Assembly: GCF_000190435.1 (NCBI RefSeq)
Contig: NC_015152.1
Location: 750,458-814,457 of the forward strand
Origin: Sphaerochaeta globosa str. Buddy
GTDB lineage: Bacteria; Spirochaetota; Spirochaetia; Sphaerochaetales; Sphaerochaetaceae
Direction: 5' to 3'
Length of the DNA stretch: 64,000 bases
The position numbers and the translations under genes are program-made. Shown in pieces: positions 5,878 through 64,000 of this stretch (position 1 is the first letter of the stretch; the number at the start of each line of letters is the position of its first letter). A model generated the notes under the pieces. That model searched no databases. It worked only from the letters and a program-made list of their open reading frames with translations, and was not told the origin of the DNA.

Positions 5878-6939
5878 ATGCGAAAGAAAAAGGTCACCCT
5901 GCAAGACATAGCAAACACTGTTGGCATTTCATCGGCCAGTGTATCCATGATCCTTGCCTCCAAGAGTCTGAATCGCTTTTCTGATGAGACTATCAATGCG
6001 GTGTACACAGCCAGTCGGGAGCTCGGGTATGAGTCAAAGCATTCCAAGGAAGACCGAAAGGTTGTCATTATCGTCTGCCCATCGGTGATAAACCCCTATT
6101 TTGCCACCATCATCCAGGGAATGGAGCAGGAAGCGAATGTACGGGGCCTGGGTACCATGCTCTTCACTACGTACTGGGATATTGAGAAGGAAAAGCGCAT
6201 TTGTGAATTTGCCAAGGATCCGAGCGTAGGCGGGGTGATTTTTGCCATGATCCCCCAACAACCGGAGCTTGTTCGGGAATTGAACAAAACGGTTCCGGTA
6301 GTTGCTGTAGGCGACAAGCAAAACGATATCGGACTTGATACCGTGGACGTAAACAACTTCAATGCAGGTACGTTGGTCGCAAAACATCTGCTCGCACTCG
6401 GACATCGCAAAATTGCCTATCTCTCAACCAGCCTGAACAGCGAACACAGCGCACGCGTCAGACGTTTTGACGGGCTTAAGGCTACAATCAAGCAGTTTGG
6501 ACTCCCTGCCAAACTCAATCTCTACGCTGCAGAAGTTCCTTCCCTTACCGAATTGAACACCATCGACATCGAACATCAGACCGGATATGCCTTGGCAAAG
6601 CGCTGCATGAAGGAGACTCCTGATGTTACGGCCATGGTCGCCATCAACGATATGGTGGCATATGGAGTCATCGATGCCATCAAGGATAGTGGGTATTCAA
6701 TTCCCGACGATTACAGTGTCTGTGGATTCGACAATATCTATCCTTCCTCCTTTGCCGGGGTAGCTTTGACCACCGTCGAGCACTACATCATCCAAGGGGG
6801 GAAGAGTGCCGTACGTCTTCTCTGTGAGAAAATGGAACGGCAGCAACCACGGACGCTTGAACAGGGTGCGGTAACGCGCGTGGAGTACCAAAACCGATTG
6901 ATCATCCGCAGCTCCACGGGAGAGCCCCCAGCCAAGTAA
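5878..6939 (+). CDS. LacI-family transcriptional regulator of the TRAP operon
   Basis: The protein has 353 residues. The N-terminal helix-turn-helix reads VTLQDIANTVGISSASVSMIL, followed by a hinge and a periplasmic-binding-protein-like effector domain (VIIVCPSVINPYFATI onward, ending in FDNIYPS). LacI proteins bind palindromic operators as dimers or tetramers and release or bind them with a small ligand. The gene is divergent from dctP, which makes the dctPQM-GDPD operon its likely target. An AGG-containing site (TGAGGTAGT) lies upstream of the ATG. Ligand and operator are not identified. Confidence 0.85.
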   Translation: MRKKKVTLQDIANTVGISSASVSMILASKSLNRFSDETINAVYTASRELGYESKHSKEDRKVVIIVCPSVINPYFATIIQGMEQEANVRGLGTMLFTTYWDIEKEKRICEFAKDPSVGGVIFAMIPQQPELVRELNKTVPVVAVGDKQNDIGLDTVDVNNFNAGTLVAKHLLALGHRKIAYLSTSLNSEHSARVRRFDGLKATIKQFGLPAKLNLYAAEVPSLTELNTIDIEHQTGYALAKRCMKETPDVTAMVAINDMVAYGVIDAIKDSGYSIPDDYSVCGFDNIYPSSFAGVALTTVEHYIIQGGKSAVRLLCEKMERQQPRTLEQGAVTRVEYQNRLIIRSSTGEPPAK

Positions 6940-61070: not shown

Positions 61071-61961
61071 ATGAACTATCTATCGGTAGCTGACACTGCA
61101 AAGAAATGGAATATGTCAGAGCGTACTGTGCGTAATTACTGTGCAAATGGAAAGATTCCTGAAGCATTCCTTACCGGCAAAACATGGAACATCCCAAAGA
61201 ATGCCATGAAGCCGGGTAGGATTAATACTCATGCAGCCACACCACAAACGCTACTGGAGATTCTCAAGGTTGAGCACGATGCAAAAACCTCGGGTGGTAT
61301 CTACCACAAGGTGCAGATTGACCTTACCTATAACTCAAACCATATCGAAGGCAGCCGCCTTACTCACGACCAGACCCGCTATATCTTCGAAACGAACACC
61401 ATCGGTTTTCCCACAGAATCCATGAATGTAGACGACATCATAGAGACTGCCAACCATTTCAAGTGCATCGATATGATCATAGCGCGGTCAAAGTTTGCAT
61501 TATCTGAGAGTTTTATCAAGGAACTTCACCGTACGCTGAAAAGCGGCACCAGCGACTGGCGTCGCGGCTGGTTTGCAGTGGGCGACTACAAGCGTTTGCC
61601 CAATGAGGTTGGCGGCAAAGAAACCACGTTACCGGAAAAAGTACCCTCTGAGATGCGTGAGCTGCTGGCAACATATAATGCAGTCCAGGGTAAGACTCTG
61701 GATGAAATTATTGATTTTCATGTACGCTTCGAGTCCATTCATCCGTTTCAGGACGGAAACGGTCGTGTTGGTCGACTGATTATGTTCAAAGAATGCCTAA
61801 GAAACGGCATCGTGCCGTTCATCATTGATGATGCTATGAAGATGTTCTATTATCGAGGCCTTGATGAGTGGAACAGCGAAAAAGGCTATCTGAGAGACAC
61901 TTGTCTCTCTGCTCAGGATACTTTCAAGGAATACCTGGACTATTTCAGAATTGCTTACTGA
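61071..61961 (+). CDS. Fic-domain protein with N-terminal helix-turn-helix
   Basis: The product is 296 residues. Residues 1-45 form an excisionase/MerR-like helix-turn-helix (LSVADTAKKWNMSERTVRNY). The Fic core motif HPFQDGNGRVGR begins at H224, complete with the catalytic histidine and the asparagine and arginines that bind ATP. Upstream, S89-x3-E93-G94 (SNHIEG) matches the inhibitory helix motif, so the enzyme is probably self-inhibited. Fic proteins add AMP to target proteins. The DNA-binding part may act on the inverted repeats in its own promoter. It is not next to a recognisable antitoxin gene. Confidence 0.85.
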   Translation: MNYLSVADTAKKWNMSERTVRNYCANGKIPEAFLTGKTWNIPKNAMKPGRINTHAATPQTLLEILKVEHDAKTSGGIYHKVQIDLTYNSNHIEGSRLTHDQTRYIFETNTIGFPTESMNVDDIIETANHFKCIDMIIARSKFALSESFIKELHRTLKSGTSDWRRGWFAVGDYKRLPNEVGGKETTLPEKVPSEMRELLATYNAVQGKTLDEIIDFHVRFESIHPFQDGNGRVGRLIMFKECLRNGIVPFIIDDAMKMFYYRGLDEWNSEKGYLRDTCLSAQDTFKEYLDYFRIAY

Positions 61962-61993: not shown

Positions 61994-62022
61994 GGCAAAC
62001 CCTTTAGCTAAAAAGGTTTGCC
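61994..62022 (+). terminator. Hairpin downstream of fic
   Basis: GGCAAACC (61994-62001) and GGTTTGCC (62015-62022) pair perfectly, with inner CTTT/AAAG pairing. There is no T tract on either strand, so termination is only likely, not certain. Confidence 0.45.
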
Positions 62023-62026
62023 TTAC

Positions 62027-62056
62027 GTGCCCAGAAGAAGACTCGAACTTCCACGA
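62027..62056 (-). pseudogene. tRNA-Leu-like 3' end remnant
   Basis: On the minus strand a T arm (GGAAG-TTCGAGT-CTTCT) is followed by TCTGGGC and A, the acceptor 3' strand and discriminator of a tRNA-Leu, but then CGT instead of CCA. No matching 5' acceptor strand (GCCCAGA) is seen within 100 bp. It looks like a decayed tRNA end or an attachment-site remnant. Confidence 0.4.
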
Positions 62057-62065
62057 GTGTGAAAG

Positions 62066-62131
62066 AGCTAGGACTCGAATCTTTGGATGTTACCTGCTTT
62101 CAGATAGTCCTACTAGCATTACCGGATACTA
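62066..62131 (-). pseudogene. Second decayed tRNA-like sequence
   Basis: Read on the minus strand, a D-loop-like CCGGTAATGC, an anticodon-like CTGAAAG and a T-loop-like GATTCGAGTCC follow in tRNA order and spacing, but stems are broken by mismatches. It lies directly beside the tRNA-Leu-like remnant. Confidence 0.3.
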
Positions 62132-62390: not shown

Positions 62391-62456
62391 AATGCGGGGA
62401 AGTCGTATTTGGAACTTATACTTCTCAATTCGATGTATTCAATTTCAGTATACAAG

Positions 62457-62494
62457 TATTTAGAAGTTACTCGATTAGTAGACCTACTTCTAAA
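62457..62494 (+). repeat. 38-bp inverted repeat, left copy, flanking the AAA/DUF4143 gene
   Basis: This copy starts TATTTAGAAGTTACTCGAT and ends TACTTCTAAA. It matches the reverse complement of 63832-63869 at 31 of 38 positions without gaps. Each copy is also an internal dyad (TTTAGAAGT/ACTTCTAAA). It lies 30 bp downstream of the gene's stop codon. Confidence 0.8.
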
Positions 62495-62524
62495 CGCTTG
62501 TTTCGATACACATGACCCAGGGGG

Positions 62525-63817
62525 TCAGAGTGCATCAAGCGCGGATTCATCAAGGAGAAAATCCATCAATCCAATGGTAATCACGCCTTTCTCATTCACC
62601 CATGGTTTCATCTTTGTTTTTGATATGATGATCTTACGGAAAAAATCATCCACTTCAAGTAAAGGCCGTTGCTCCTGCTGTTGCTTATCCGGAGAGTCCA
62701 TTCTCAGGGTAGACTGGATGTAATACTTTTTCATCCCTTTATTAATGATGAAATCAATTTCCAGATTGCTCTGACGTACTTTCTGGTCATCTCCTTTTAC
62801 ATTTGCAGTTACAACACCTACATCAACAGCGAAGCCCCGGCTGATAAGGTTGTTAAAAATGATGTTTTCCATCATATGGGACTCCTCTTGCTGCCGGAAG
62901 TTCAATCGAGCATTCCTGAGTCCTAAATCCACGCAGTAGTATTTTGAAGGATATGAAAAATACCTTTTTCCCTTGACATCATACCGCTTTACACAGCTGA
63001 ATAAAAATGAATCACAAAGGTAACCAAGATAAGAGGATACTGTATTTGAGTTCACGTTCGTCTGCCTTGCCGACGACAGTGCATTTGCAAGACGATTGGC
63101 ATTAGTCAGTGATCCAATGGAAGAGCTAAGCGCATCAGTAATCTGTTCCAATACATCAGGTAATGCGATCCTATATCTTTCGATGATATCCTTGAAGTAA
63201 ATCTCAGTGAAAAGATTTTGTAAATATCCCACTTTATCTTCCGGTTCTGAGTAACGCAGAACTCCTGGAAGCCCTCCGAACAATGCGTATTGCTCGTATG
63301 CATCCTCTTTATCTCCACCTGTAAAGTCGTAAAACTCCTTGAAAGAAAGTGGCCAAATTTCAACCGTATCTCCACGGCCACGGAATGATGTCAAGACATC
63401 ATTGCTGAGCATTCTTGAATTGCTCCCGGTAACATAGATGTCTGTATTTTTCAATCTCATAAGTCCGTTGAGCATATCGTAAAGCTCTGTCGTAACAGTA
63501 TTATCCATTTCATTCCGTTTGAGTGCATACTGAACTTCATCAATGAAGACATAGTACATTTGACTGGAGTTTTCCAATTTTGCTCTGATGAAAGTATTAA
63601 GCTTGGAGACGTCACGGTACTGTGTGTAGTGGATATCGTCCAAGGCTATGCCAATAATTTGTTCTTCTTTCACTCCAGTAGAGATAAGGTAATCATGATA
63701 AAGATTGAACAAGAGAAAGCTCTTGCCACTTCTTCTCAAACCAATGATGACTTTCACCATTCCGTTTTCCCTTCTCCGTATTAGTTTTTGAAGGTAATAG
63801 TCACGCTTGATTATCAT
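62525..63817 (-). CDS. AAA ATPase with DUF4143 domain
   Basis: The protein has 430 residues. The Walker A motif is GLRRSGKSFLL and Walker B is YYVFIDEVQY, both in the N-terminal AAA_14 domain; YVTGSNSRML follows as sensor 1. The C-terminal DUF4143 part contains YCVDLGLRNARLNFR and EIDFIINKG, a restriction-endonuclease-like E-x-D-F-hydrophobic-hydrophobic core. This family is widespread, often in several copies per genome, and its function is unknown. The gene is alone between two 38-bp inverted repeats. No other gene shares its transcript. Confidence 0.85.
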   Translation of the reverse strand: MIIKRDYYLQKLIRRRENGMVKVIIGLRRSGKSFLLFNLYHDYLISTGVKEEQIIGIALDDIHYTQYRDVSKLNTFIRAKLENSSQMYYVFIDEVQYALKRNEMDNTVTTELYDMLNGLMRLKNTDIYVTGSNSRMLSNDVLTSFRGRGDTVEIWPLSFKEFYDFTGGDKEDAYEQYALFGGLPGVLRYSEPEDKVGYLQNLFTEIYFKDIIERYRIALPDVLEQITDALSSSIGSLTNANRLANALSSARQTNVNSNTVSSYLGYLCDSFLFSCVKRYDVKGKRYFSYPSKYYCVDLGLRNARLNFRQQEESHMMENIIFNNLISRGFAVDVGVVTANVKGDDQKVRQSNLEIDFIINKGMKKYYIQSTLRMDSPDKQQQEQRPLLEVDDFFRKIIISKTKMKPWVNEKGVITIGLMDFLLDESALDAL

Positions 63818-63831
63818 ATTGTACTTCCTTA

Positions 63832-63869
63832 TTTAGAAGTAGCTTGTTTTATCGAGTTACTTCTAAATA
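63832..63869 (-). repeat. 38-bp inverted repeat, right copy, flanking the AAA/DUF4143 gene
   Basis: Read on the minus strand it starts TATTTAGAAGTAACTCGAT and ends TACTTCTAAA, the inverted partner of 62457-62494. As a dyad its arms are a perfect 13 bp (63829-63841 and 63858-63870). It lies 14 bp upstream of the start codon. Beyond it, 63871-64000 holds no gene that can be supported. Confidence 0.8.
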
Positions 63870-64000
63870 AATAGTATAGGGCAATACTTGATAATGCAAG
63901 GATATTACCACGAAGTTTTTATGGGAAAGAAGGTAGTATGAAAGACGATAAGTAACGCAGGAATACAATTGTGAGTTTGGTAAAGGCATACAATTCCCTT

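Follow-up and report, generated by a model that had tools for sequence, protein, structure and literature searches.

The inverted repeats around a DUF4143 ATPase gene of Sphaerochaeta globosa are copies of a gene-specific dyad box in a family of probable single-gene modules

The two 38-bp inverted repeats that bracket an ATPase gene in the window (the whole 64,000-nucleotide stretch of Sphaerochaeta globosa str. Buddy DNA analyzed here) are copies of a gene-specific dyad of about 34 bp, here called a box, and are not transposon ends. The best explanation is a single-gene selfish or defence-like module that has private operator boxes and spreads by insertion with long target duplication, a reading to which we give a probability of roughly 0.6.

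Positions 62457-62494 and 63832-63869 form an ungapped inverted repeat in which 31 of 38 nucleotides are complementary. This is the longest repeat pair in the surrounding 2.5 kb, and the best score in 300 shuffles of both flanks was 25 (mean, 21.1; sd, 1.1). Both arms have internal dyad symmetry (63829-63844/63855-63870 and 62452-62467/62486-62501), and for this reason the pair also scores 76% as a direct repeat. A single gene of the AAA_14/DUF4143 type (62525..63817, minus strand), which encodes a protein of 430 aa, lies between the arms. The earlier note, which had described a gap-free repeat of 31 in 38 positions, with a dyad in each arm and one such gene in between, was accurate on all of these points, and the repeat stands well above its shuffles.

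The proximal box, TTATTTAGAAGTAGCTTGTTTTATCGAGTTACTTCTAAATAA (63829..63870), lies between the -10 hexamer and the start codon and likely overlaps the transcription start; in the orthologue L013 its core is changed and its arms are kept. A promoter-like element read from the sequence (63873..63899, minus strand) has TATACT at 63878-63873 and TTGCAT upstream at 63899-63894, and this region is conserved in genome G011. The downstream box (62452..62501) lies past the stop codon and is kept in G011 and, at 39 of 40 positions, in genome G001. The G011 orthologue of the ATPase gene is 89% identical, and both dyads are present there at the same positions.

The earlier note saw in the bracketed gene a possible minimal mobile unit, with AGTATA outside both ends as a possible, if weak, target duplication. 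In a true transposable unit, the repeats would be terminal inverted repeats that the encoded protein cuts. The gene is tightly bracketed, the repeats are far above chance, and the protein has ATPase and nuclease-fold domains, all of which would suit such a unit. AGTATA is present in both places, but at 63873-63878 it reads TATACT in the direction of the gene and is the -10 hexamer of the ATPase gene promoter; since the G011 orthologue has GATACA there, it is no preserved target duplication. Moreover, the repeat pair is found just once in the genome. The 36-bp repeat has only two occurrences in the whole S. globosa genome (single contig, 3.32 Mb), both at this locus, and was absent from all others of 100 sampled family genomes, a sample that apparently did not include G011. 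The repeat does not bracket other DUF4143 genes; the boxes of paralogues are unrelated to it, and mostly their two copies are both upstream and flank the promoter. Elsewhere in the family, the flanking repeats are direct and often consist of host gene ends, and the duplications at those loci range from 39 to 776 bp rather than having a short constant length. We regard a true transposable unit as very improbable.

The surroundings of the gene point the same way. A Fic-domain gene (Fic and HTH_17; 61071..61961, plus strand) is the conserved neighbor of the ATPase gene in G011 and of its remnant in G001. In G001, the Fic gene and the downstream dyad are kept, and the ATPase gene is reduced to its last five codons by a deletion that starts within the gene and ends past the upstream dyad, so that its ends do not match the repeats. 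Because the position is shared with G011 and G001 and the loss in G001 is ragged, excision at the repeats is argued against, and no clean empty site was found at this locus. The earlier note had itself named a repeat confined to this locus and conserved synteny as refutation criteria, and with the Fic-DUF4143 neighborhood common to G011 its literal claim fails by its own criteria.

The S. globosa genome has about 430 extra bases between the Fic gene and the dyad, including a partial copy of a nearby tRNA-Leu; in G011 and G001, the Fic gene adjoins the locus without this partial repeat. The copy, a partial tRNA-Leu(cag) with its 3' flank at 61995-62082 (L042:4453-4540, 6726-6866), lies between the Fic and ATPase genes and resembles a duplicated island attachment end, and the complete tRNA-Leu is just outside the window. 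This repeat (95 bp, 82%, at -547/+442) was the only candidate for a long target duplication at the locus, which has neither a distal box nor a long target duplication of its own.

Four further DUF4143 genes, with 32 to 56% identity, are encoded in the S. globosa genome, and three of the four have dyads of their own that are unrelated to the boxes described above. Congeners in the closer subfamily carry a dyad of 30 to 44 nt about 15 to 55 nt before the start codon, often with a direct copy of the box about 75 nt farther upstream. About a dozen loci have another copy past the stop codon, and in many Sphaerochaeta loci, a box stands at the outer ends of the unit. The more distant DUF4143 clades (L007 and L029-L033) had no clear boxes. 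L007 (G000:C1:659358-660554) is a fifth, distant DUF4143 copy in the S. globosa genome, with one in-frame TAG in the match.

The upstream arrangement extends well beyond this genus. A scan of genomes of bacteria and archaea supplied 80 relatives. Most were Clostridia and Bacilli, and Bacteroidota, Actinobacteria, Mycoplasma, Treponema, and Succinivibrio were also represented. We tested these relatives jointly with the Sphaerochaeta set for a direct repeat of at least 18/24 within 200 bases before the gene. Paired upstream copies were found in 56 of 98 loci from several phyla, compared with 5 in shuffles and 0 in coding controls, and were mostly spaced 72 to 78 nt apart; about 40% of the upstream regions had no clear pair at this threshold. 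Promoter-like hexamers lay between the copies in 48 of 62 cases, although the control for this count is weak, with 38 of 98 shuffled regions reaching the same score. The median positions were -119 for the distal copy, -85 for the -35 hexamer, and -45 for the proximal copy. Most loci outside Sphaerochaeta had no downstream copy of the box.

Box similarity follows protein similarity across these loci (Mantel r = 0.55; 0 of 999 permutations), with a Spearman correlation of 0.39 for the box and 0.10 for the spacer. When the protein was divided, the partial correlation with the box was 0.27 for residues 225-300 (winged helix), 0.16 for the nuclease-like part, and 0.04 for the AAA part. The co-variation could in part reflect shared ancestry, although the spacer does not co-vary in this way.

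These data bear on whether the boxes are instead RNA hairpins or the sites of another host regulator, with the gene moving only as a passenger, like any other, of genomic-island hotspots. The A-rich asymmetric linkers of some dyads resemble those of RNA internal loops, and the guaA and tRNA-Leu neighborhoods are classical island sites. Yet the distal copy is upstream of the apparent -35 hexamer and hence outside that transcript, for which reason we favor a DNA site and reject an RNA hairpin alone, and a box that varies together with the winged-helix part of the gene's own product would be unexpected for a shared host regulator. This alternative appears distinctly unlikely.

Pfam profiles PF13173 (95.4 bits; cutoff, 27) and PF13635 (55.9 bits; cutoff, 28.1) match the encoded protein, and the PADLOC profile PDLC04787, for the unvalidated candidate PDC-S01, covers residues 2-424 (E = 4e-109). 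The AlphaFold2 model has a mean pLDDT of 90. In structure comparisons of the model, residues 1-306 matched the archaeal STAND-type ATPases 2qen (Z, 18.6; 3.1 Å; 269 aligned) and 2fna (Z, 18.1; 3.4 Å; 268 aligned), followed by NLR/CED-4 chains (Z, about 14 to 16), and the protein is predicted to have a STAND-type ATPase fold with a winged helix. The shared fold with 2qen and 2fna spans only this ATPase/winged-helix part, to which the S. globosa protein adds a further domain. Its C-terminal 126 residues, modelled alone, matched 1y88 (Z, 10.3; 3.0 Å; 102 aligned), Can2 8bao (Z, 9.2), McrC 7vsr (Z, 9.1), and Bax1 6p4w (Z, 8.8), a predicted PD-(D/E)XK fold. In place of the catalytic (D/E)xK, all members printed have Q-x-[A/T]; the motif thus looks degenerate, and the domain may have a migrated lysine.

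PMC12988326 likewise describes PDC-S01 as an ATPase joined to a PD-(D/E)XK-fold domain, in agreement with the profile match. It also reports PDC-S01 as the fourth most common defence system across prokaryotes when unvalidated candidates such as this one are counted. The available excerpts of the literature naming PDC-S01 contain no mention of cognate boxes, a promoter layout, or a route of movement, and our literature search returned no experimental function for DUF4143. A DUF4143 homologue occurs in 173 Acinetobacter plasmid records, and the S. globosa protein is about 29 to 34% identical to PDC-S01 members from Acinetobacter plasmids. On Acinetobacter baumannii plasmid p1VB280820 (L290), the DUF4143 gene adjoins a BREX locus (WYL, DUF1819, DUF1788, and brxC).

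We postulate that the encoded protein itself would read a DNA site of which the 38-bp repeats are two copies; in this protein, a STAND-like ATPase, a winged-helix region, and a PD-(D/E)XK-fold domain are predicted to be coupled. In the usual layout, the promoter lies between two copies spaced by about seven helical turns, so that an oligomer occupying both would throw the promoter into a loop. The gene could thereby stay silent until the loop is released by a trigger, for example infection. Sites that diverge together with the protein would keep paralogues in one cell from cross-regulating each other. The window locus would look like a pair of terminal inverted repeats because only the proximal and downstream copies remain there.

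At three Sphaerochaeta loci, some genomes have a single box where others have a unit. Locus A lies upstream of a PEP carboxykinase gene; its arrangement is box-gene-box in G023 and G024, and G017, G018, G019, G020, G025, and G002 have one box in the same place. The inserted unit is 97.5% identical between G023 and G024, with flanks at 88% and 96%; the solo boxes have 93% pairwise identity, compared with 35 to 50% for the adjacent bases. Locus B, between guaA and a MATE gene, is filled in G017, G018, G024, and G025 and holds one box in G019, G020, G023, and G002; in outgroups, the gap is 60 to 125 bp and has no box. Precise loss in several lineages is likely at locus B because unit divergence tracks flank divergence. 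The independence of the losses at loci A and B was judged by flank identities rather than by a species tree.

At locus C, G011 has one box, G001 has two boxes around a RelB and PIN gene pair with the same flanks, and the S. globosa genome has box-DUF4143-box. In G001 (L203:9310-10225), the genes for the RelB/DinJ-type antitoxin and the PIN toxin lie between two near-identical direct DUF4143-type boxes. The guaA-MATE gap is a site of repeated insertion: pieces of the guaA 3' end recur downstream of guaA in G011 (L225), G015 (L223), and G004, and in the S. globosa genome (L229) the gap holds about 950 extra bases.

Several findings would suit box-specific recombination, in which the protein or a partner would use the boxes as attachment sites to insert and remove single-gene cassettes: three loci have one-box empty sites, locus C carries two different cargoes in the same box frame, conserved solo boxes contrast with divergent neighboring bases at locus A, and many Sphaerochaeta units have boxes at their outer ends. 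Against it, a downstream box is missing from most units outside Sphaerochaeta, and host sequence brackets several units; box loci themselves differ in duplicated length, from 39 to about 72 bp; the nuclease motif is degenerate; and ordinary recombination between direct repeats of 35 to 70 bp explains precise loss. We find it unlikely. A broader conjecture, that PDC-S01/DUF4143 genes are self-moving elements whose winged helix reads the private dyad in two roles, as a double operator and as a site of recombination for their own or toxin-antitoxin cassettes, is tentative and in our estimate rather unlikely as well. Under the single-gene module with private operator boxes that we prefer, a box also present at the far end would let recombination between direct copies remove the gene and leave one box, and the leftover box could host other small modules, as the RelB-PIN toxin-antitoxin pair may do in one case.

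Two candidate comparisons were rejected. By anatomy alone, integron gene cassettes are similar in that one-ORF cassettes are swapped at imperfect dyad sites. Unlike integrons, however, the units are single cassettes at many unrelated loci with private boxes, no integrase was seen beside DUF4143 units, and the core GTTRRRY/RYYYAAC, read directly, is absent from 62452-62501 and 63829-63870. A 2630-bp circular Prevotella nigrescens plasmid that carries the gene was considered as an excised circle, but it maps inside a larger locus and has no bounding boxes. This circle is an exact piece of the larger record (L199 and L200) and is possibly a deletion circle; the locus contains a Mpi-type serine invertase, Eco57I-type methylase genes, and the DUF4143 gene.

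The mobility that the earlier note had proposed does not hold at the window locus in its literal form, but for the family as a whole there is good support for a mobile unit of one gene. The support comes from direct rather than inverted flanking repeats, from the one-box empty sites at loci A and B, where sister species have the ATPase unit, and from the exchange of cassettes at locus C. Of 89 nonredundant DUF4143 clusters, 18 were flanked within 500 bases by direct repeats scoring at least 24/30, compared with 3 of 176 control ORFs (Fisher p = 4e-7), the controls being drawn from the same loci and perhaps themselves accessory genes. Several of these repeats are 3' ends of host genes, including serS (113 bp, 99%), lysS (776 bp, 91%), and others of 84 to 168 bp, one of them 168 bp at 98.8%. 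Nearly all tested congeners of the L168 genome have just one copy of the serS 3' end; a direct empty site for this insertion was not obtained, the relatives being too distant for the right flank to align. Five plasmid-borne homologues that were checked for repeats yielded mostly nothing, apart from one 25/30 match in L290.

With units that lie between long direct target repeats of variable length (39 to 776 bp), the DUF4143 family follows the pattern of insertion with long target duplication, which was described for restriction-modification genes (Nobusato 2000, as cited in PMC3031569 and PMC1643837). That process shares with ours a small unit between long, variable direct target repeats, with no terminal inverted repeats seen. 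Here, in contrast, the cargo is an ATPase family with its own dyads, a toxin-antitoxin pair, or a schlafen/AlbA_2-type gene. The last of these, a box-less gene with schlafen/AlbA_2 and HATPase_c_4 domains in G010 (L043:8239-9877), is flanked on both sides by a direct repeat of about 53 bp that consists of the last part of an EamA-type permease gene; in G013 (L111), the site is empty. Since the duplication length varies and a box-less schlafen/AlbA_2-type gene is found in a similar setting, the insertion route may be host-driven rather than a property of the DUF4143 protein. We propose that the modules spread as one gene with its control region, inserting with long target duplication, often at the 3' ends of host genes.

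With a private site of known sequence for each gene and a fixed double layout, binding, regulation, and the orthogonality of paralogues can be tested directly on short synthetic DNA. The statistics of the flanking repeats point to a way in which DUF4143 genes could reach new loci singly and without a transposase, and they suggest that insertion with long target duplication extends beyond restriction-modification genes.
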